This document shows, piece after piece, positions 6,808 to 22,978 of a DNA stretch of 46,066 nt. Every line of letters begins with the position of its first letter. Within the stretch, counting starts at the first letter, position 1. The stretch comes from Bacteroidales bacterium (lineage in GTDB: Bacteria; Bacteroidota; Bacteroidia; Bacteroidales; WRLA01): positions 1 to 46,066 of the forward strand of contig JAIRTP010000025.1 in assembly GCA_031254805.1 (NCBI GenBank), written 5' to 3'. Made by a program: the position numbers and the translations under genes. The notes under the pieces are model-generated. The model was not told the origin of the DNA and made no database searches. It saw nothing but the letters and a program-made list of their open reading frames with translations.

Positions 6808-8307
6808 TTAGTTTTTTATAATGATCTTTTTTATTACATTGGAATTTGAATAAAGGAGTAAAATATAGCCGCCTTTATCCCATTTGCCGGCGGATATTTC
6901 TTGAATAACTCCTTTGTGTGAATATATCAACTTTCCTTGTAAATCATACACTTTACATTCTTCTATATCCGACGCCGAGTCGATGTATATTTTATCTGTA
7001 ACCGGATTTGGATAAATAACCGGTTGATTTTGATCAACATTATATATTGAAACGCCATCTAAAGTTATGCAACTTTTCTCGGAACGGCTTCCCTTTATTT
7101 CGCCAACTACGGCTTCTATTTCATAACAATATTCCTTAAAACTTATGCCCGCGTGCTCAATATAAGTTTCTGTTATGGGCGTTTCCGTGATTCTTGCTCC
7201 GTTACAGTAAACATGATAACCGGCTATCGGAAGATAGGTCTCCGGCATTTCCCAAGAGCTGTACATTTCTAAGCTGTTAAACTCTTTCTGTTTAGCTTGT
7301 ACGTTGATCGGTTGGGGGATATCAACCATAGTTATTGCGCAGTCTTTGGCGGGATACCCTTCGACGCCGTTTGAACTTGCTGTCACGACATAACAATATT
7401 TCACTCCATAATCCTGTACTAAATCGGCGTAATGAGTAGCTGTAATTAGTTGATCATTTATTTTAATATTGTCTCTATAGATATTATATCCGTCAATTTC
7501 TCTAAAAAAATCCGGTTTTTCCCAATGGATGTTAATGTTTAAATCGCCTGTTTCTTTTTGTTCGGCTACAATATTTTTAGGAGCGGGGGCTTTTGCATTT
7601 TCAAGATAAGCAGCATTTAAGACCTCTTTCGTTGATGAATGCTGTACAAATATGGCAACTTCCAGATCATCCATTTCCTCAACGTAAGTCGATGCCATAT
7701 CATATTCATAATTAAAAGAAATGGGAACTCCTTCCGATAAGGAGACAGTCTCTCCTTGCCCGTCTGGCAGCATTTTCATGCAAACATGATAGAATTCCTT
7801 TTCGCCATTACTGCCATGATTTCCGGTAGTTTTCCTTTCATTAATAGAGATATGAATACGATAATCTTCTCCGGAAATGAAAGGAACTACACGTCCTTCA
7901 ATAAAAATTTTTGTTTCATTTACATGAAAAGAGCCGGTTATTTCAGCGTCGGCAGACTTTTGGTAAGCGTTATTGACGGCGTTGATCACATAATTATGAT
8001 CGTCGCCGATATATTGATCCATTCCATCAATATTTGATGTCGGAATATATTGAATTCCATAATAATTTGCTCTTATTGCCACGTCGTCGGTACAGTAACT
8101 ATCTTGTTGATATTTGACGACTACGCATTTTTCAGCGTTTTCGGTCAACCAAGGGATTAATTCTTTATTCAAAGTATAGCAAGGACCGCACCAAGATGCG
8201 GTTGAGATTTCCAACAAAACTTTTCGTTGTGGATTAGCCTGAGAAAAAGATTGATTGATAATGAGTAAGCAGAAACTTATTATCATGAGTGATTTTTTAA
8301 ATTTCAT
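6808..8307 (-). CDS. Thioredoxin-fold Omp28-like protein with T9SS sorting domain
   Basis: The 499-residue protein is built from a signal peptide (1-23), a thioredoxin-like domain with a WCGPC redox motif at 39-43, two fibronectin-type-III-like beta domains (from about APAPKNIVAEQKE and IPQPINVQAKQKE), and a C-terminal T9SS type-A sorting domain of about 71 residues (429-499). The latter starts PVIYPNPVTDKIYI and ends in the basic tail KKIIIKN. The CTD routes such cargo through the SprA/PorV translocon, after which it is cleaved and usually attached to the surface. A disulfide-handling or surface binding role is possible; the substrate is unknown. It is divergent from ahcY and appears to be a single-gene unit. 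Confidence 0.88.
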   Translation of the reverse strand: MKFKKSLMIISFCLLIINQSFSQANPQRKVLLEISTASWCGPCYTLNKELIPWLTENAEKCVVVKYQQDSYCTDDVAIRANYYGIQYIPTSNIDGMDQYIGDDHNYVINAVNNAYQKSADAEITGSFHVNETKIFIEGRVVPFISGEDYRIHISINERKTTGNHGSNGEKEFYHVCMKMLPDGQGETVSLSEGVPISFNYEYDMASTYVEEMDDLEVAIFVQHSSTKEVLNAAYLENAKAPAPKNIVAEQKETGDLNINIHWEKPDFFREIDGYNIYRDNIKINDQLITATHYADLVQDYGVKYCYVVTASSNGVEGYPAKDCAITMVDIPQPINVQAKQKEFNSLEMYSSWEMPETYLPIAGYHVYCNGARITETPITETYIEHAGISFKEYCYEIEAVVGEIKGSRSEKSCITLDGVSIYNVDQNQPVIYPNPVTDKIYIDSASDIEECKVYDLQGKLIYSHKGVIQEISAGKWDKGGYILLLYSNSNVIKKIIIKN

Positions 8308-12885: not shown

Positions 12886-13260
12886 ATGGATTCATTTTTT
12901 ACAATTTTAATTTATGTTGGGGTATTTATTCTTATTGCTTTAGCAAAGTCGATAGGCGGAGCAAAGAAAAAGAATCGAGCTATTCCGGAGAAAGAATATG
13001 CAGAAGTTGACGATACGAATTATCAGAAAGATTATGAGATGGAACAGGCGAGAAATAGACATCTTTCATCTCAGAAAATTTCGAACGCCTTTTTTCATTT
13101 TGCTCCAATAACGCCATTAGAAACAAAAGAGCAAAAAGTTCCGGTTGATAACGTAGTTGAAGAAGAATTGTATGAGGAGCAAGAAGCGTCCATTTTAGAT
13201 GATTTTGATTTAAAATCGGCCGTCGTATATTCGGAAATATTAAATCGGCCTGATTATTAA
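12886..13260 (+). CDS. Single-pass membrane protein, unknown function
   Basis: The 124-residue product begins with one hydrophobic helix (SFFTILIYVGVFILIALAKS) and continues as a polar, acidic, probably disordered cytosolic or periplasmic tail. It ends in DFDLKSAVVYSEILNRPDY, a type of C-terminal segment I have seen on small Bacteroidota membrane proteins and that may be a docking motif. It lies one base after the basic lipoprotein gene. The net charges are opposite (basic partner, acidic tail), which could favour pairing. No enzymatic function can be assigned. Confidence 0.65.
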   Translation: MDSFFTILIYVGVFILIALAKSIGGAKKKNRAIPEKEYAEVDDTNYQKDYEMEQARNRHLSSQKISNAFFHFAPITPLETKEQKVPVDNVVEEELYEEQEASILDDFDLKSAVVYSEILNRPDY

Positions 13261-13416: not shown

Positions 13417-16400
13417 ATGATAAAACGGTTACTTTTGACTTTAGGGATAATGCTGGCCTTACATGGTTTTGCATTTTCACAAGGGGCGGGATCGCTATTT
13501 GGCGTTGTTACAGACAGAGAAAGCGGCGAACCCATACCTTTCGCAAACGTAGCAATTATGGCTAACGGAGCTATTGTTACAGGGGCGCAAACCGACTATG
13601 ATGGCAAGTATGCTATTAGAGCTATTAATCCGGGAACGTATACTCTCCGCGTTTCGAGTATAGGATATCAGACAGTAGATATTCAGGGAATCGTAATTAG
13701 GATTGACCAGGCGGTACCGAGAGATGTAGACATGAAATCTACAACAGCAGAGTTGGCCCCAGTGGAAATTTTTGACTACAAGGTCCCCGTTTTCGAGGCT
13801 GACAACACCAGCGTAACGACGACCGTTACCGCTGACGAGATTAAGAAAATGCCTAACCGCTCTATTGAAGGAGTCGTTACCTCTGTAGGGGGCGTCTTCA
13901 CTAAAGACGGCGAAATTGGGAGCATCAGGGGATCTCGCGAGGGAGCGCAAGCTATGTTTATAGACGGTATGCGCGTCACCAGTTTGAGCGGTATTCCTGC
14001 ATCGTCGTTCGATCAGATTTCTACGACCTTATCAGGACTTCCCGCTCGTTACGGAGACGTTACCTCCGGAGTAATTAATATTACGACCAGAGGCGCGAGT
14101 CGCGTTTTTGGAATGAGCGCCGAAGTAGAAACCTCTCAGTTTTTAGATCCGTATGGATATAATAGAGCTGAATTGTCCATAAACGGACCTTTATGGAAAA
14201 AGAAAAATGAAAATGGCATATCTCGTACGATCATGGGATACTCTTTGAGCGCTAACTTTGAATATAATGGTTCGGAGAAGTCTGCAGTTGGATATAATCG
14301 TGTCTCGCAAGAGCAATTAGATTATTTGCATGCCAATCCATTGGTCCCGGGCGCTACGACGGGAACTTTCCAAGCGGCTTCGTTCGTCGACCCTAATGAT
14401 ATTCATCATTATAAAACTAAAGTAAATTCCTCTAATTACAGGACAAGCGCCGTAGGGCGTTTGACCATCAGTCCGACTCAAAATGTCGATATTACTTTGG
14501 GAGGAACTTTTACTTATGCTAAAGGAAAAATACAAGACTTTGCTTCAACATTACTCAATTATGATAATTTTGGAATATCTCAAAGTAGAACTTTCCGCGT
14601 TTATGGACGTTTAACGCAAAGATTTGAATCTAATCCGGAAAGTACTTTTAAGAATTTTTATTATACGATTCAGGCGAATTACGAAAATTATGATATATCC
14701 AATTATAATCCCGATTTAAAGGATAAAATTTTTGAATACGGCTATGTTGGAAAATTTGAAGTAGATCAATATCCTACCTTTGAAAGTAGAATAATGGAAG
14801 AGATAGGACCAATGCCTGTATATGTACAAAATGGTTGGGGAGAGAGTAATCTGATTTTTGATTCTCAAAATACCTCAATTCCTACATATGCAGCTTATAA
14901 TGAATATTTTATCAATCATTTCGAAGAGTTCGGGATGATTGATAATTATGATCAATTGAGAGGGCTTGGCGGGTTGATGAACGGAGAATCTCCGAATTCT
15001 ATTTATTCATTATGGGTGGCTCCGGGAGTACCGTATTCTACTTATGTAAAGCAAAATCAACAAAAATGGGAAATAGACGCGTCAGGATCAATGGATATCG
15101 GCGATCATCAAATTCGTTTAGGATTTCAATATGAACAGCGAAATAATGCATCTTGGCGGGTTCTTCCTACTAGCCTCTGGACTATGATGCGCCAATATAC
15201 GAATAACCATATTGAGCAGATGGATACGAGTAATCCGATGGCAATGGATGGCGGAAACCTTAGCAATGCCGATACCGTATATTATTATAGAGCTTATGAT
15301 GGACAAATTCAATCAATGTTTGACTGGAATTTAAGATCCCTATTAGGATTAGATCCCAGAGGATTGGATTATATTTATGTCGATTCTTATGATCCGACTA
15401 CCCAAACAATGGTTATTTATGATAAGGAAAATAATAGGCTTATTAGAGATCTGAAGGATAATTTGGATATTTCATTGTTTTCTCCGGATGATCTTTTCAA
15501 TCAAGGAAGAAACATTGTCTCTTATTATGGATATTCATATGATGGGGCAAGATTAAACTATAAGCCTACCTTGAATGATTTCTTTACAAAACGGGTTAAT
15601 GTGAATGGAAAAGAGATGTATTCTCGTGAAATAGCGCCTTATTCGCCGACTTATATAGGCTTTTGGCTTGAAGATAAATTCACATTTAACGATATTATCT
15701 TTACCGTTGGACTTCGTATTGACGGCTTTGATGCAAATCAAATGACCTTGAAAGATAATTATTTACTATATTCGGCCTATAACGTGGGCGATTTAAAAGC
15801 TAATAAAGGAGATGGAATATCTCCGGATGAGATTAATGCTATTCCGGGAAATATGGGAGACGATTATGTTGTTTATATTCATGACGCCACGTCGAATAAT
15901 AAACAAATTACAGGGTTCAGAAATGGAAATACATGGTATAATGCGGACGGTATAGAGATAAATGACCCAAATCAAATAGCTTCGGCAAAAGGAATCATTC
16001 CGTTTTTGGAGAATCCTTTATTGAGTTCGCCGACAGTTGACGCTTTTGAAGACTATAAAACACAGGTTAATGTGATGCCGAGGATTTCTTTCTCTTTCCC
16101 AATATCCGACGACGCCTTATTCTTTGCTCACTATGATATTTTAACGCGTAGACCAAGCGATGTACAAATAGATCCGTTTATTTATTTGTTCTTTATGGAA
16201 AATGCCGGATTGTCAAGTTTTTTCAGTAATCCTTCTTTGAAACCATCTCAAACGATTGATTATGAACTTGGATTTAAACAAAAAGTATCTAATAATTCGG
16301 CTATTTCTCTTTCTGCATTTTACAAAGAGATTAGGGATGAGATACAAGCATATCGTTTTACCGGAGCATATCCTGATAGCTATTCATCATATAATAATAT

Positions 16401-17154
16401 AGATTTTGGAACGACCAAAGGATTGACGCTTTCGTATGATTTACGTCGTACTAATAATATAAGGCTTCGCGCCGATTATACTTTACAGTTTGCAACAGGT
16501 ACGGGATCGTCTCCCTCTACGCAAGCAGGGTTGATAGCAGCTCAACTTCCTAATTTACGTACGGTTATTCCTTTAGAGTATGACCGTCGTCATGCTATTA
16601 ATTTGACTGTGGACTATCATTTTTCCTCAGGAACCGATTATAACGGACCGGTTATAAAAAGAGAAAAGAAAGGAAAAACGCCGGTGCAAGTATTGGCTAA
16701 TGCAGGATTATCAATTATGCTTTATGGAGGTTCGGGAACGCCGTATACCCGTCAAGCAAATATTACAAACCTGATACAAGGCGGTACAAAGCTTTTGGAA
16801 GGGACTATGAATGGTTCTCGTATGCCATGGCAATTTAATTTAAGCGCCAAGATTGATAAGGATTTTAATTTTAATATGGGATCGCGTAAGAATGGAGAAA
16901 AACGTTCCGGCTCAATTAATGTATATTTAGCGTGTAACAATATTCTGAATACGGCAAGCGTATTATCAGTATATCCAAAGACAGGTCTACCAAACGACGA
17001 CGGTTATTTATCTGCTCCCGAATCGGTAGCGTATGTAAATAGCCAAGTTTCTCCTGAAACATTTGCTTATTTATATATGTTGAATTTAGACCGGCCGGGT
17101 AATTATACCGCCCCGAGAACGTTGCGTTTAGGCTTGATCTTTAGCTTCTTCTAA
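13417..17154 (+). CDS. TonB-dependent receptor-like outer-membrane protein
   Basis: The 1245-residue protein has a signal peptide (1-21), a CarboxypepD_reg-like domain (about 25-105: GVVTDRESGEPIPFANVAI, LRVSSIGYQTVDIQ) and a TonB plug-like domain (about 120-230: MPNRSIEGVVTSVGGVFTKD, GSIRGSREGAQAMFIDGMRV, PARYGDVTSGVINITTRG). The rest is a long beta-barrel ending LRLGLIFSFF with a C-terminal Phe, as expected for BAM assembly. It heads an operon with a 1535-residue secreted protein (20-base gap) and a PorV-like barrel, not with a SusD lipoprotein, so it is unlikely to be an ordinary glycan importer. A secretion- or surface-assembly-linked role is inferred from the neighbours. Confidence 0.85.
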   Translation: MIKRLLLTLGIMLALHGFAFSQGAGSLFGVVTDRESGEPIPFANVAIMANGAIVTGAQTDYDGKYAIRAINPGTYTLRVSSIGYQTVDIQGIVIRIDQAVPRDVDMKSTTAELAPVEIFDYKVPVFEADNTSVTTTVTADEIKKMPNRSIEGVVTSVGGVFTKDGEIGSIRGSREGAQAMFIDGMRVTSLSGIPASSFDQISTTLSGLPARYGDVTSGVINITTRGASRVFGMSAEVETSQFLDPYGYNRAELSINGPLWKKKNENGISRTIMGYSLSANFEYNGSEKSAVGYNRVSQEQLDYLHANPLVPGATTGTFQAASFVDPNDIHHYKTKVNSSNYRTSAVGRLTISPTQNVDITLGGTFTYAKGKIQDFASTLLNYDNFGISQSRTFRVYGRLTQRFESNPESTFKNFYYTIQANYENYDISNYNPDLKDKIFEYGYVGKFEVDQYPTFESRIMEEIGPMPVYVQNGWGESNLIFDSQNTSIPTYAAYNEYFINHFEEFGMIDNYDQLRGLGGLMNGESPNSIYSLWVAPGVPYSTYVKQNQQKWEIDASGSMDIGDHQIRLGFQYEQRNNASWRVLPTSLWTMMRQYTNNHIEQMDTSNPMAMDGGNLSNADTVYYYRAYDGQIQSMFDWNLRSLLGLDPRGLDYIYVDSYDPTTQTMVIYDKENNRLIRDLKDNLDISLFSPDDLFNQGRNIVSYYGYSYDGARLNYKPTLNDFFTKRVNVNGKEMYSREIAPYSPTYIGFWLEDKFTFNDIIFTVGLRIDGFDANQMTLKDNYLLYSAYNVGDLKANKGDGISPDEINAIPGNMGDDYVVYIHDATSNNKQITGFRNGNTWYNADGIEINDPNQIASAKGIIPFLENPLLSSPTVDAFEDYKTQVNVMPRISFSFPISDDALFFAHYDILTRRPSDVQIDPFIYLFFMENAGLSSFFSNPSLKPSQTIDYELGFKQKVSNNSAISLSAFYKEIRDEIQAYRFTGAYPDSYSSYNNIDFGTTKGLTLSYDLRRTNNIRLRADYTLQFATGTGSSPSTQAGLIAAQLPNLRTVIPLEYDRRHAINLTVDYHFSSGTDYNGPVIKREKKGKTPVQVLANAGLSIMLYGGSGTPYTRQANITNLIQGGTKLLEGTMNGSRMPWQFNLSAKIDKDFNFNMGSRKNGEKRSGSINVYLACNNILNTASVLSVYPKTGLPNDDGYLSAPESVAYVNSQVSPETFAYLYMLNLDRPGNYTAPRTLRLGLIFSFF

Positions 17155-17174
17155 TTCATATAAATTGTTATAAA

Positions 17175-20100
17175 ATGAAAATAGATATAATTATGAAAAG
17201 AGTATTACAACTATTTTTGGTAATGTTTTGCATGACAGGTTATATTGCTTCTGTTTATGCAGAAAGAGTACCTGAGCGATATTTGCAAAAAGATGCAAAA
17301 CAGGAAATAAAGAACGTTACTGCGGCGTGTTTTCCAGGAGCTGGTTTTGAGATGTTGGAGGTGAACAACGTCAGGTCTCGTATTAATACGAGCGGGGATA
17401 TGTGGCAAAACTTTGCAGTCGGGTTAGCCCAATATTTTATTCCGGCAAATACGACAAAAACTTCTTTATTTGCCGGAGCCTTATGGATCGGAGGTATGGA
17501 CGTTAATGGGCAGCTAAAATTGGCGGCTCAACGCTTTCGTCAAGACGGAATAGATTATTGGCCGGGACCGTTGGACATCAATATGGCTTCGATCACAGAA
17601 GACGTGTGTGCAGAATGGGATAGAATGTTCCGTATTTCTAAAGCGGAAGTTCAGGAGTTTATTTCTTATACTAATTCGGATAATAAAGACGAAGATTTCC
17701 CAGATTACGTAAGACCGCAAGCCATAGATGAATGGCCTGCACATGGAAAGCCGGAGTTAGGACAAGCTCTCTATTTAGCTCCATTTTTTGACGTGGATGG
17801 CAACAGCATATATGATCCGGAAGCCGGAGATTATCCCTATTACGACTTTGATAACGTATTGTGTCCTTTAAATTATGTCGACTCAATTGGATGGCATCCG
17901 GCTCCTACAATGGGAACATTAAATGGCACCGAACAAGGAGGATTACTTTCCGACCAAGTTTTAAAAGGCGATGAGACTTTATGGTGGGTATTTAATGATA
18001 AAGGAGCTCCGCATACAGAAAGTAAAGGGCAAGCAATTGGTCTTGAAATTAGAGCGCAATCTTTTGCGTTTGCTACAAATGATGAAATCAATAATATGAC
18101 TTTTTTTAGTTATGAGATCATCAACCGTTCTACTTTCATTTTGACTGAAACTTATTTTGCGCCGTGGACTGATCCTGATTTGGGATATGCTCGGGACGAC
18201 TATATCGGTTGCGATGTAGAAAGGGGAATGGGATATTGCTACAATGGAACAAATGTTGATGGTACGGGACAACCTGAAGCGTATGGAGAAAATCCTCCGG
18301 CTGTTGGAATCGACTTTTTCCAAGGACCTTATTTGGATCCCAATAATTTTGATAATCCTGCTTACAAAACGGCCTCCTTAAAAGGACCTTCATTTTACTA
18401 TACGGGCAACTTGTGCGAAATTGTCACAAGTCATGATCAACTTATTTCCGTGCCTTGGAAAACGCCGGAAGGAACTGACACTTCTGCGATCACACTGGTA
18501 AAGGCGGAAGCTATTAATGGCGTCAATTTTGGAAATGGGATTGTAGATGACGAACGTTATGGTATGAGACGTTTTGTATATTATAACAATACTAGAGATC
18601 CTGTTAACGGAGAACCTGATAAGGCTACCGACTATTATAACTATTTGAGAGGTATTTGGAGAAATAATCAACGCATGACGTATGGAGGAAATGGAACATC
18701 AGGAGCAATTGTTGCAGATTTCATGTTCCCAGGAACTACGGACGGATGTAGATGGGGCGTGCATGGGGATCCTGTTGGAGCTAATGAATGGTCGGAAAAA
18801 TCGGAAAATACCGATGTGGATGATAGACGGTTTATGCAATCTGCCGGCCCTTTTACATTACAACCGGGCGCTGTTAATTATATTACATTTGGAGTGCCAT
18901 GGGCGAGAGCAAGTTCGGGAGACGCTTGGGCTTCTGTTGTTAAATTGCAAGAAGCAGATGATAAATGCCAAGCTCTGTTTGATAACTGTTTTAAAGTTCT
19001 TGACGGCCCGGATGCTCCTGATATGCATTTTGTTGAATTGGATAAAAAACTTATTATTCATCTAACGAATCCTATGAATCAATCCAATAACTATAATGAA
19101 GCCTATGAAGAGTTAGACAATACCATTATAGAAGGAGATCCTTATTTCAGATTTGAAGGGTATCAGATATTCCAACTTGCAAATTCGGAAGTAGGGGCTG
19201 AAGATTTGTTGGATGAAACAAAAGCGCGCTTAATTAGACAATGCGATATTGCAAATGGAGTAAATCGAATTGTAAATTGGGAAGATGATCCTGTTACGGG
19301 ATATAGTAAGCCTATTTTAAGAGCAAACGGCGAAAATAAAGGTATTGTTCATACATTTGAAATAACGGAAGATTTATTTGCTTTGGGTGATAATAAGAGC
19401 CTGATTAATAATAAAGCATATTATTATATGGCTATTGCTTACGCTTATAACAATTGGAAAGAGTTCGATTTTAATAATACGGGAGTCGGCGGACAAATGC
19501 GTCCATATTTAGCAGGTCGTAAAAAGTCAGGCGGGCAATCTTTATCGCCTATTAAAGCCATTCCTCATAAAACAATAAATGGGATCGTTCTGAATTCAAA
19601 ATATGGAGATATTCCTACGGTTACGCGTATTGAAGGGCAAGGAAACGGTGGTATTTGGTTAGACATTTCGGACTCTTTGAGAGAGGTTATTGGAAGTATG
19701 CCGCCGCTTGAACCGGGCGTACTCTTTGGAGCAGATCGGTATCCCATGGTAAAAGAGATGCAATATGAACGAAATGCGGGACCTATTAATGTAAAAGTAA
19801 TAGACCCCTTAAAAGTTAAGCCTCAAAATTACAAATTGGTCTTTCATAAAGGAACCGTCAATCCTCCTATTTCCGCTCCTCATGAAACATATAATCCAAT
19901 GCTTCATCATGGAGATTTTACTTATGCATATTATATAGATGAAGCGAAGTGGTATTTGCAAAAAGAAAATTCGGATTCACTCTTCTTCCCTGATGTGCCT
20001 TTAAACATCTCTAAATCAAGCGTTCTTGCTCAAGAGATATACAGGACGAATCATGAGCAATTATTTATAGACTTAGGAATTAGCGTTACGGTAACGCAGA

Positions 20101-21782
20101 CATTCCATCCCGGCGATTATTGGTTAAGAATGTCGGGAAATGGATATTTGGGATCCGATGCGATATTTGCCGATACGTCTAAAAAATGGCTTACAGGAGT
20201 TGCTGATATGGATATACCGGGTAATCCAATTAACTGGATTCGTTCAGGAACCTATTTTGATACAAGGGAATCGAATGGAAATATTAGGGATAATGACTAT
20301 AATATTAGCAGACGCGATCAGGACACGTCTCAGCGAGCGAAAGAAGCCAAAGCAATGGAAGCTTGGGATCCAATGCAGAATTATGAAAAAATATACGATG
20401 GAACTTGGGCGCCTTATACTTTATGTGCATCTGTATCATCAGTAGTATGGAATCCTCCATTGGGCGAAGAATCATTATATGGCCCCGCCGTATCAAGAAA
20501 ATCTAAACCAAATAATTTCATGACATCTGTTAATAGCGTTGATATAGTATTTACAAACGATAAATCTTTATGGACGCGTAGCGTTGTTGTTGAGACAGGA
20601 TTTTATAATGATCTGAATGAAGGGGCAAGAGAAATGTTCTTACCAAGAAAAGCTCCCTCAATAGATAAGCAGGGTATTCAATATGGGCAACCGGGATGTA
20701 ATGAAGAGGAAGCTTCGGTAGTTTCTACCGAAGGAATGGGTTGGTTTCCCGGTTACGCCGTTAATATTGAAACGGGAGAAAGATTAAATATCATTTATGG
20801 GGAGAATTCATATTTTGCAGCACATAATGGGCGCGATATGAAATTTAATCCTACTTCTACAATTCTTGATGTTGCTGGCAATTATTATTTTGGGGGGATG
20901 CATTACGTGTATATTATGGGACATAAAATATACTATGCAGAGGATGAAACCGAGAACCCTGAACCGGGACTTGATCCAGAAGATGCAAAAGCAGGTTTCC
21001 CAAGAGAATTGCCCGCTTACGATGCCGGCAGGAGATATATGGAAATATTTAGAGGTATAACAGCAAGTCCTACGCCAAATCTACCAGATTCTATTTATGG
21101 TAGAGATATGGTATTTGGATCTTGCCAATGGGTTGGGATTCCCATACCGACTTTAGATTTTCAAGATATTTGGAAACATTGGTATGAGGGAAGTAATAAC
21201 GCCAAATATATGGAAGGAACGGACTTTCTATTAAAAATAAGAGTTGCAAAACCTTATGCGCGATATGAATCCGAAATATTGACAAATCCGGCCAGAAAAT
21301 ATGGCTATAAGATACCTGTAGATCCACATTATGCATCGCAAATAGCGAATGATTATTGGCCGATGTTTGAATTCTCGACCAAAGGAATGGAACCGATCTA
21401 TTACGATCAAGTAAAATCAAAATCAGATTTGGAAGAGATTAGGGTAGTGCCGAATCCTTATTATGCATATTCTAACTATGAGAGTTCCTCAATTGACAAT
21501 AGAGTAAAAATATCTAATTTGCCGAGAAAATGTACAGTTTCTATTTATAACATCGGAGGAACTTTAGTCAGACAATTCTCGAAAGATACTCCCGAAAGTA
21601 CATTCTTGACAGGGGAAAATTCATTTGTAGATTGGGATCTGAAAAACTTTGCAGGTATTCCTATATCAGGCGGCGTTTATATCGTCCATGTGAAAGCATA
21701 TGATGACAATAATAAAGTTATTGGCGAAAAGGTGATAAAATGGTTTGGCGTGATCAGAACCGTTGACTTATTCACTTTCTAA
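17175..21782 (+). CDS. Giant secreted protein with FlgD/T9SS-CTD-like C-terminus
   Basis: The 1535-residue product has a signal peptide that reads best from the internal Met at 17193 (MKRVLQLFLVMFCMTGYIAS), so 17193 is an alternative start. The N-terminal region (NVRSRINTSGDMWQNFAVGL, TSLFAGALWIGGMDVNGQLK) is of a kind found in very large Bacteroidota envelope proteins. The last 117 residues (1419-1535: IRVVPNPYYAYSN, VSIYNIGGTLVRQFS, ISGGVYIVHVKA) resemble a T9SS/FlgD-type beta-sandwich. After it comes an extra tail, KWFGVIRTVDLFTF, instead of the usual basic KxxxxK end. It sits between the receptor-like barrel and the PorV-like gene. Function unknown; surface or translocon-associated assembly is inferred. 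Confidence 0.82.
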   Translation: MKIDIIMKRVLQLFLVMFCMTGYIASVYAERVPERYLQKDAKQEIKNVTAACFPGAGFEMLEVNNVRSRINTSGDMWQNFAVGLAQYFIPANTTKTSLFAGALWIGGMDVNGQLKLAAQRFRQDGIDYWPGPLDINMASITEDVCAEWDRMFRISKAEVQEFISYTNSDNKDEDFPDYVRPQAIDEWPAHGKPELGQALYLAPFFDVDGNSIYDPEAGDYPYYDFDNVLCPLNYVDSIGWHPAPTMGTLNGTEQGGLLSDQVLKGDETLWWVFNDKGAPHTESKGQAIGLEIRAQSFAFATNDEINNMTFFSYEIINRSTFILTETYFAPWTDPDLGYARDDYIGCDVERGMGYCYNGTNVDGTGQPEAYGENPPAVGIDFFQGPYLDPNNFDNPAYKTASLKGPSFYYTGNLCEIVTSHDQLISVPWKTPEGTDTSAITLVKAEAINGVNFGNGIVDDERYGMRRFVYYNNTRDPVNGEPDKATDYYNYLRGIWRNNQRMTYGGNGTSGAIVADFMFPGTTDGCRWGVHGDPVGANEWSEKSENTDVDDRRFMQSAGPFTLQPGAVNYITFGVPWARASSGDAWASVVKLQEADDKCQALFDNCFKVLDGPDAPDMHFVELDKKLIIHLTNPMNQSNNYNEAYEELDNTIIEGDPYFRFEGYQIFQLANSEVGAEDLLDETKARLIRQCDIANGVNRIVNWEDDPVTGYSKPILRANGENKGIVHTFEITEDLFALGDNKSLINNKAYYYMAIAYAYNNWKEFDFNNTGVGGQMRPYLAGRKKSGGQSLSPIKAIPHKTINGIVLNSKYGDIPTVTRIEGQGNGGIWLDISDSLREVIGSMPPLEPGVLFGADRYPMVKEMQYERNAGPINVKVIDPLKVKPQNYKLVFHKGTVNPPISAPHETYNPMLHHGDFTYAYYIDEAKWYLQKENSDSLFFPDVPLNISKSSVLAQEIYRTNHEQLFIDLGISVTVTQTFHPGDYWLRMSGNGYLGSDAIFADTSKKWLTGVADMDIPGNPINWIRSGTYFDTRESNGNIRDNDYNISRRDQDTSQRAKEAKAMEAWDPMQNYEKIYDGTWAPYTLCASVSSVVWNPPLGEESLYGPAVSRKSKPNNFMTSVNSVDIVFTNDKSLWTRSVVVETGFYNDLNEGAREMFLPRKAPSIDKQGIQYGQPGCNEEEASVVSTEGMGWFPGYAVNIETGERLNIIYGENSYFAAHNGRDMKFNPTSTILDVAGNYYFGGMHYVYIMGHKIYYAEDETENPEPGLDPEDAKAGFPRELPAYDAGRRYMEIFRGITASPTPNLPDSIYGRDMVFGSCQWVGIPIPTLDFQDIWKHWYEGSNNAKYMEGTDFLLKIRVAKPYARYESEILTNPARKYGYKIPVDPHYASQIANDYWPMFEFSTKGMEPIYYDQVKSKSDLEEIRVVPNPYYAYSNYESSSIDNRVKISNLPRKCTVSIYNIGGTLVRQFSKDTPESTFLTGENSFVDWDLKNFAGIPISGGVYIVHVKAYDDNNKVIGEKVIKWFGVIRTVDLFTF

Positions 21783-21826
21783 GATGTAAGATTATGGTAA
21801 ATTTGAATAACATTAAAGTGAAAAGT

Positions 21827-22912
21827 ATGAAAAATATTTATAGACATATAGCAACGATAACATTGGTCATGGCATTTGCTATGCTTTCAATCACGTCGTT
21901 ATTTGCCGGAAACAAAGACCGTTCCGGACAAAGTGGAGCTTCAGAACTATTGATAAATCCGTGGGCAAGGTCGTCCGGTTTGTCAAATACGGGTACGGCT
22001 AACGTATCGGGCTTGGACGCTACTTTTATCAATGTGGCGGGAATGGCTCATACGCAAGGCTCTCACGTAGCTTTTAATTATACCAATTATTTGAATGGAA
22101 CAGGCATCAATATGTTTTCCTTAGGAATAGCGCAACAATTAGGCTTGGGAAAAGTTTTAGGATTAAATATTCAAAACTTGAGCTATGGCGAGGAAAATAT
22201 CACTACGTATGAGCAACCTGAAGGCGGATTAGGTACTTTCAGCGCTAACAATATGATTATTAACTTGAGTTATGCTCAAGCTTTTTCAAATAGTATTTTT
22301 GGTGGTATTACCGTTAAAGTGATTAACGAGTCTATCTTTGACGTATCAGCCACCGGCGTAGCTCTTGATGCAGGTATCCAATATGTAACTGGAGAACAAG
22401 AACAAATCAAATTGGGAATCACTTTGAAAAATGTTGGAACAAACATGAAGTTTTCAGGAGATGGATTAACTTTGCGGATGCCTCCAAGTCAAGGCTCTGA
22501 GAATATAGTATCAGAGTTCTCAATGAATCAACGTTCGGAAGGATTTGAATTACCTACGACGCTTCAAATAGGAATCGCTTACGATTTTCTGTTTGATCAT
22601 AATAGCCGTCTGACGGTTATGGGCAACTTCCGTTCTATGGCGTTTGGTAAAGATAATATCGGTATTGGGCTTGAAGGTTCAATAATGGATTATTTAATTC
22701 TCCGCGCCGGTTATTCTTTTGAATCGGGTCAATTTTCAGATTATGATAATTTAAAGTATGAAAATTTGAATGTTGAAAAAGGATTTGCTTGCGGTTTGTC
22801 GTTGCAATACCCTTTCAAAAACAAAAAATCTTTTGTTTCTTTGGATTACTCATATAGAATGACCGAGATTTGGAAAGGAACGCACTGTATAGGAGCAATT
22901 ATTAACTTCTAG
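21827..22912 (+). CDS. PorV/PorQ-family outer-membrane protein
   Basis: The 361-residue product has a signal peptide from the ATG at 21827 (MKNIYRHIATITLVMAFAML; an upstream ATG at 21794 gives an unnaturally long start). The mature part begins SGASELLINPWARSSGLSNT, then GTANVSGLDATFINVAGMA, the signature of PorV-type FadL-fold barrels, and ends GAIINF with a terminal Phe. PorV is the shuttle that takes T9SS cargo from the SprA translocon. This copy differs in context from canonical porV, which usually adjoins porU, and may be a dedicated paralogue for the giant protein encoded just upstream. Last gene of the trio. Confidence 0.82.
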   Translation: MKNIYRHIATITLVMAFAMLSITSLFAGNKDRSGQSGASELLINPWARSSGLSNTGTANVSGLDATFINVAGMAHTQGSHVAFNYTNYLNGTGINMFSLGIAQQLGLGKVLGLNIQNLSYGEENITTYEQPEGGLGTFSANNMIINLSYAQAFSNSIFGGITVKVINESIFDVSATGVALDAGIQYVTGEQEQIKLGITLKNVGTNMKFSGDGLTLRMPPSQGSENIVSEFSMNQRSEGFELPTTLQIGIAYDFLFDHNSRLTVMGNFRSMAFGKDNIGIGLEGSIMDYLILRAGYSFESGQFSDYDNLKYENLNVEKGFACGLSLQYPFKNKKSFVSLDYSYRMTEIWKGTHCIGAIINF

Positions 22913-22927
22913 TATTTGAATATTTTA

Positions 22928-22935
22928 TATATTTG
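22928..22935 (+). promoter_or_regulatory. -7 promoter box of greA, upstream of a terminator-like hairpin
   Basis: TATATTTG followed by C fits TAnnTTTG and predicts a start near 22942. The terminator-like hairpin at 22948-22978 would then lie in the greA leader. Confidence 0.5.
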
Positions 22936-22947
22936 CGCCGAAAAAAA

Positions 22948-22978
22948 GGACCCATTTTATTATGGGTCTTGTTTTTTT
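22948..22978 (+). terminator. Hairpin with T-run between the PorV-like gene and greA
   Basis: GACCCAT (22949-22955) pairs with ATGGGTC (22962-22968), extended by a G-T and an A-T pair, with a 6-base loop and a run of seven T after it. It can end the trio transcript 36 bases after its last stop. Because the only visible greA promoter box is upstream of it, it can also act as a leader terminator for greA. Confidence 0.75.

Follow-up and report, generated by a model that had tools for sequence, protein, structure and literature searches.

A conserved three-gene module of Bacteroidota that may join a dedicated T9SS client and its PorV-like carrier to a TonB-type receptor

Three adjacent genes in a 46,066-nucleotide stretch of Bacteroidales DNA (contig JAIRTP010000025.1, the whole of which is called the window here) encode a TonB-dependent-receptor-like barrel, a giant secreted protein, and a barrel of the PorV/PorQ family. 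This trio is real, ancient, and apparently undescribed: we found no account of it, or of the giant protein, in the open-access literature (subscription papers and preprints lie outside that scope). The account that we favor, with confidence slightly above even, is that the giant is a binding protein secreted by the T9SS, held by its C-terminal domain (CTD) on a dedicated PorV-family carrier, where it would do for the receptor what SusD does for SusC.

All three open frames lie on the forward strand. The receptor-like barrel occupies 13417..17154 (1245 aa), the frame of the giant runs from 17175 to 21782 (1535 aa), and that of the PorV-like barrel covers 21794-22912 (372 aa). Orthologue alignment favors ATG starts at 17193 for the giant (17193..21782, +; M7 and K8 are nearly invariant) and at 21827 for the barrel (21827..22912, +; 361 aa), leaving gaps of 38 bases between receptor and giant and 44 between giant and barrel; in 75 relatives the median gaps measure 29 and 33 bases. 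This spacing suggests a single transcript. A terminator-like hairpin with a T run follows at 22947..22970 (+), between the trio and greA, and folds better than shuffled sequences (z = -3.3); a plain hairpin scan of the region gave no enrichment (10 found, 8.5 expected). The initial annotation had proposed one transcript with gaps of 20 and about 44 bases. The spacing agrees with one transcript, but the pair of gap values mixes two start conventions and likely should read 38 and 44. A TATATTTG motif of the Bacteroidota -7 type stands at 22928-22935 (+), between the trio stop and the hairpin ahead of greA, and the motif TANNTTTG is over-represented within the window (73 found versus 50 expected).

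Each of the three proteins begins with a signal-peptide-like stretch and ends in Phe, in keeping with the initial reading of all three as exported proteins with a C-terminal Phe. The terminal residue of the giant is not a product of chance, since 115 of 139 homologues end in Phe and a further 11 in Tyr. Relatives of the receptor mostly end in Phe, and those of the barrel in Phe or Leu.

A search for co-occurrence across genomes, a check that the initial annotation had called for, was strongly positive: the three families form a module. Twenty orthologous loci from related genomes repeat the order receptor-giant-barrel-greA-HIT as far as their contigs reach, and the order of the trio itself is intact at 75 of 80 loci in named Bacteroidales genomes. 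Four of the remaining five loci are cut by contig ends; at the fifth, as we read it, an overlapping antisense frame has been called in place of the barrel. In a class-wide sample of 40 giant genes, 31 are flanked by receptor and barrel. Five of the others are extra giants with no trio beside them; the rest reflect contig ends, a single split gene set, and a single trio into which another giant has been inserted behind the barrel. All five of the extra giants away from a trio come from genomes that also have one, and therefore the barrel is not necessarily restricted to a single client; perhaps the extra giants are further clients of the same barrel.

Genes for GreA and a HIT protein come after the trio in almost all members of the class, as would be expected if the three genes were neighbors merely through a conserved greA region, with no functional link. 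We give that idea a negligible chance. At least 11 loci in other classes of the phylum keep the trio with greA not beside it, and plasmid pRMAR01 of the cultured strain Rhodothermus marinus DSM 4252 carries a receptor, a hypothetical protein, and a PorV/PorQ-family protein in the same order (L253:3269-12943; genes RMAR_RS14120, RMAR_RS14115, and RMAR_RS14110), scoring 246, 74, and 131 bits, respectively, against the family models. The greA neighborhood therefore does not explain the linkage. Conversely, all three genes can be missing together from a place that retains greA and the HIT gene: one locus (G009) reads small ORF-greA-HIT and thus presents an empty slot. The plasmid trio is followed by genes whose annotations read peptidoglycan recognition protein and serine hydrolase. 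Two genomes of the same genus as the window genome (G001 and G002) are without all three genes and have SprA, with no greA match.

Directly upstream of the trio in the window lies a gene for a small single-TM protein (12886-13260, +) with a conserved FDLRKAVIYSEILKRPY-like end. Its counterparts in relatives are often about 145-165 aa long, for example upstream of the receptor in loci L065-L072 and at L200:8937-9407. Because a 156-aa ORF sits at the same place in the trio-free G009 locus, we regard this gene as part of the neighborhood and not of the trio. A role in the BAM complex, prompted by a weak BamJ match of an upstream ORF (E 0.0012), was dropped: the match reaches 19 bits against a cut-off of 100, and the BamJ protein itself is a lipoprotein with peptidyl-prolyl isomerase function.

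Presence and absence tell a similar story. In a set of 60 Bacteroidales genomes in which most families are represented once, 24 have receptor and giant together and 36 have neither, with the barrel in 23 of the 24 (Fisher 3e-17, uncorrected for kinship; one genome whose contig edge bears a short giant-like piece was scored as absent). SprA was found in 59 of these 60 genomes, which makes the trio an accessory in cells that have a T9SS and not a core T9SS part. The giant family as a whole, in a count that includes short paralogues, was detected in 214 of 247 Bacteroidia genomes sampled (87%). Pairwise distances of the three proteins also covary beyond those of GreA and HIT (partial r 0.54-0.66, 0/500 permutations, 98 loci), a result that is supportive only, the GreA and HIT baseline being short and noisy.

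What kind of carrier might the third gene encode? Substrates of the T9SS exit SprA on a carrier barrel, which is PorV for type A CTDs and a cognate PorP/SprF-like protein for type B CTDs (PMC12618676). The window barrel is, by its profile scores, a third PorV-family protein, neither PorV nor PorQ. It reaches 141.7 bits with the PorV/PorQ family model NF033709 (cut-off 90), 65 bits with the PorV model NF033710 (cut-off 250), and 80 bits with the PorQ model NF033711 (cut-off 220); the real PorV and PorQ of the genome, both coded elsewhere, score 441 and 300. Together with SprA and PorU, these make up the main T9SS parts that the host genome encodes. Neither half of the type B pair, the TIGR04131 CTD and the TIGR03519 barrel, matched the window proteins at E <= 1, and TIGR03519 matched weakly in 6 of 20 orthologous barrels. 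Assignment to PorV2 (NCBI NF052325) was also considered and rejected: no match to the window barrel was listed at E <= 1, and 14 of 20 orthologues matched weakly. Elsewhere in the window, an Omp28-like protein (6808-8307, -) that combines FN3-like segments with a canonical type A sorting domain represents ordinary T9SS cargo.

The giant itself ends in a T9SS-type CTD (residues 1414-1522; 21414..21740, +), followed past the CTD strands by a conserved tail, KWFGxxRPxDLxxF-COOH (21741..21779, +). In a predicted model the ~120 residues at the C-terminus adopt the fold of a T9SS CTD, and the nearest solved structures are the CTDs of PorZ (Z 9.8, 29% identity) and PorU (Z 8.9, 22% identity). The NucA CTD bound in the SprA-PorV translocon is also matched (Foldseek prob 1.00), and, judged by overall fold, the domain corresponds to the seven-stranded Ig-like C-terminal sandwich of type A CTDs. 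Profile scores are lower: the window giant reaches 13.5 bits with TIGR04183 (type A CTD), under the cut-off of 23, while among 20 orthologues the type A sorting model matched 18 (E <= 0.01), the PorZ model 14, and the PorU model 5. A model built for the giant CTD recovered from 22 genomes the giants, at 150-190 bits, and one 583-residue frame; the next best protein scored 32 bits. In these 22 genomes, then, the CTD class is private to the giants. Of the extra giants of the class sample (L163 in G170, L153, L158, L164, L167, and L178), one is a second giant after a trio barrel and the rest are orphans; the orphans also carry this class.

These features bear on a simpler account, in which the main PorV carries the giant as ordinary type A cargo and PorU processes it, the third gene encoding a separate FadL-like porin that happens to share the operon. 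The type A-like fold and the presence of PorV and PorU in the genome would fit. Nevertheless, we think this unlikely: the barrel is strictly kept as third gene across classes, the giant CTD stands apart from all others in the 22 genomes, and the conserved tail is missing from the canonical CTDs inspected. Moreover, two short paralogues of the N-terminal domain that were examined (locus L052) have canonical type A CTDs scoring above the cut-off, with no receptor or barrel beside them. At a locus from another class of the phylum (L248), four giant relatives of ~1000 residues lie in tandem, and their ends look like ordinary type A CTDs. From the paralogues and this array we conclude that being linked to the barrel goes with the CTD and not with the passenger. 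The giant of the R. marinus trio has a tail of the ordinary kind, which suggests that the special tail is a Bacteroidota trait. Given the T9SS-type fold, a CTD class confined to giants, and a barrel distinct from PorV and PorQ, the proposal first made in the initial annotation, that the giant is the dedicated client of the PorV-like barrel, is very likely correct, carriage itself being deduced from these features.

The passenger portion gave little by sequence; Pfam returned no family for the window giant even at E <= 1, and a search against solved structures yielded nothing useful. Predicted structures for residues 26-815 (pLDDT 91) and 612-1535 (the C-half, pLDDT 85) were more informative. 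The large N-domain (about residues 52-607; 17328..18995, +) adopts a super-sandwich fold in the model, with the dextran dextrinase 9ju0 as its best match (VIA Z 19.0, rmsd 3.1, 251 residues aligned), and resembles the super-sandwich N-domains of GH15, GH94, and GH116 enzymes; further rows reach Z 14-17, where the usual background of structural matches is Z 7-8. The models contain no catalytic helical barrel after the N-domain; in its place lies an FN3-like domain (about residues 609-812; 18999..19610, +), assigned from modest matches to FN3 chains (Z 7-8) over residues 1-192 of the C-half model. The middle of the protein (about residues 813-1405) has very few structural matches in that model. 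Five cysteines of the N-domain (52, 145, 230, 346, and 605) are invariant. The predicted N-domain fold hints at a glycan ligand and makes one plausible, though proteins with the same fold can differ in function.

The receptor matches CarboxypepD_reg, Plug (PF07715, 25.4 against a cut-off of 23.9), and TonB barrel (PF00593, 45 against a cut-off of 27), all above the Pfam gathering scores. Before the plug, a hydrophobic stretch, VEIFDYKVP, is conserved among 20 aligned orthologues and resembles a TonB box by eye alone. The SusC/RagA profile TIGR04056 gave no match at E <= 1, and searching solved structures by sequence produced nothing useful. As had been noted at the outset, SusD is absent beside the trio: none of the flanking genes tested gave a SusD-type match.

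An earlier suggestion was that the receptor acts as an anchor or as an alternative gate through which the giant is exported, with the PorV-like protein as shuttle. Fixed gene order could be read this way, as could the fact that none of the 60 genomes lacks the receptor but keeps the giant. The gate idea is nevertheless highly improbable, as SprA is present in 212 of 214 giant-bearing genomes (the two others are 56% and 95% complete), the giant CTD is of T9SS type, and the TonB-type barrel carries a plug. In the window genome, export already has its gate, given that SprA, PorV, PorQ, and PorU are all encoded. The anchor-or-gate suggestion thus finds no support, and with an ordinary Plug and TonB barrel, a SusC-like partner role would be more economical.

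The main rival grants that the giant is docked on the barrel and differs over purpose: the complex would be structural or adhesive, a surface layer or a PorZ-like scaffold, and the receptor only an assembly partner or anchor. We hold it to be a real though minority possibility. The giant's size, its several Ig-like parts and invariant cysteines, its PorZ-like CTD, and the extra giants in some genomes all suit such a role. A pure anchor, however, needs no plug, and the receptor keeps both its Plug and a full TonB-type barrel; it is also tightly co-inherited.

The favored reading, of a docked binding protein that serves the receptor, can be set out as a sequence of steps. The giant would pass through Sec into the periplasm, where the SprA translocon would recognize it by its CTD, and the dedicated PorV-like barrel, in place of PorV, would carry it out. 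The CTD may then escape cleavage and remain docked in the barrel, in the manner of PorZ with PorQ or PorU with PorV, displaying the large N-domain beside the TonB-type receptor. There the giant could act as the ligand-binding partner (compare SusD for SusC), and the receptor would import the ligand via TonB. We infer carriage by this barrel, an uncleaved CTD, docking, contact with the receptor, and import from the evidence above; import, as opposed to structural use, is the weakest of these steps.

If the favored reading is right, the T9SS has a dedicated and ancient client system that ties protein secretion to TonB-driven import, and the choice of carrier is decided by the type of CTD, not of passenger. 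Some genomes pair these passengers with either the private CTD or an ordinary type A CTD, offering a natural contrast for the study of carrier choice. A bolder and more tentative proposal, to which we lend rather less than even credence, is that a private CTD class, its own tail, and its own PorV-family carrier constitute a third branch of the T9SS that installs a giant ligand-binder beside a TonB receptor. This would amount to a nutrient uptake machine of Bacteroidota and Rhodothermota in which the surface lid is delivered by the T9SS and is not a lipoprotein.

Comparison with known systems helps to place the trio. The attachment complex (PorZ-PorQ and PorU-PorV) offers the closest CTDs, since those of PorZ and PorU are nearest to that of the giant in both fold and sequence. 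They stay uncleaved, docked on PorQ and PorV, respectively, according to a review that also suggests a shielding of CTDs from cleavage by their cognate PorV-like barrels (PMC10202324). The giant would likewise be a T9SS CTD protein whose CTD is kept on a PorV-family barrel. It differs in its passenger domains, among which no PorZ propellers or PorU protease were found, and the trio has a different barrel family, its own conserved C-terminal tail, and a linked TonB-type receptor.

Pairs of type B CTD proteins and PorP/SprF barrels share with the trio the arrangement of a substrate gene followed by the gene for its dedicated carrier barrel, and type B orphan substrates elsewhere may use a common carrier (PMC12618676). 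In the trio, by contrast, the CTD has the Ig-like type A fold, the barrel belongs to the PorV/PorQ family, and a TonB-type receptor is added. SusC/SusD, finally, resembles what we propose in that a TonB-type barrel is co-encoded with a large surface binding protein; unlike that pair, the trio has a receptor that is not SusC/RagA by profile, a partner of T9SS type where SusC has the SusD lipoprotein, and a carrier barrel within the operon. What is apparently new here is the joining of a dedicated T9SS CTD-carrier pair to a TonB-type receptor.
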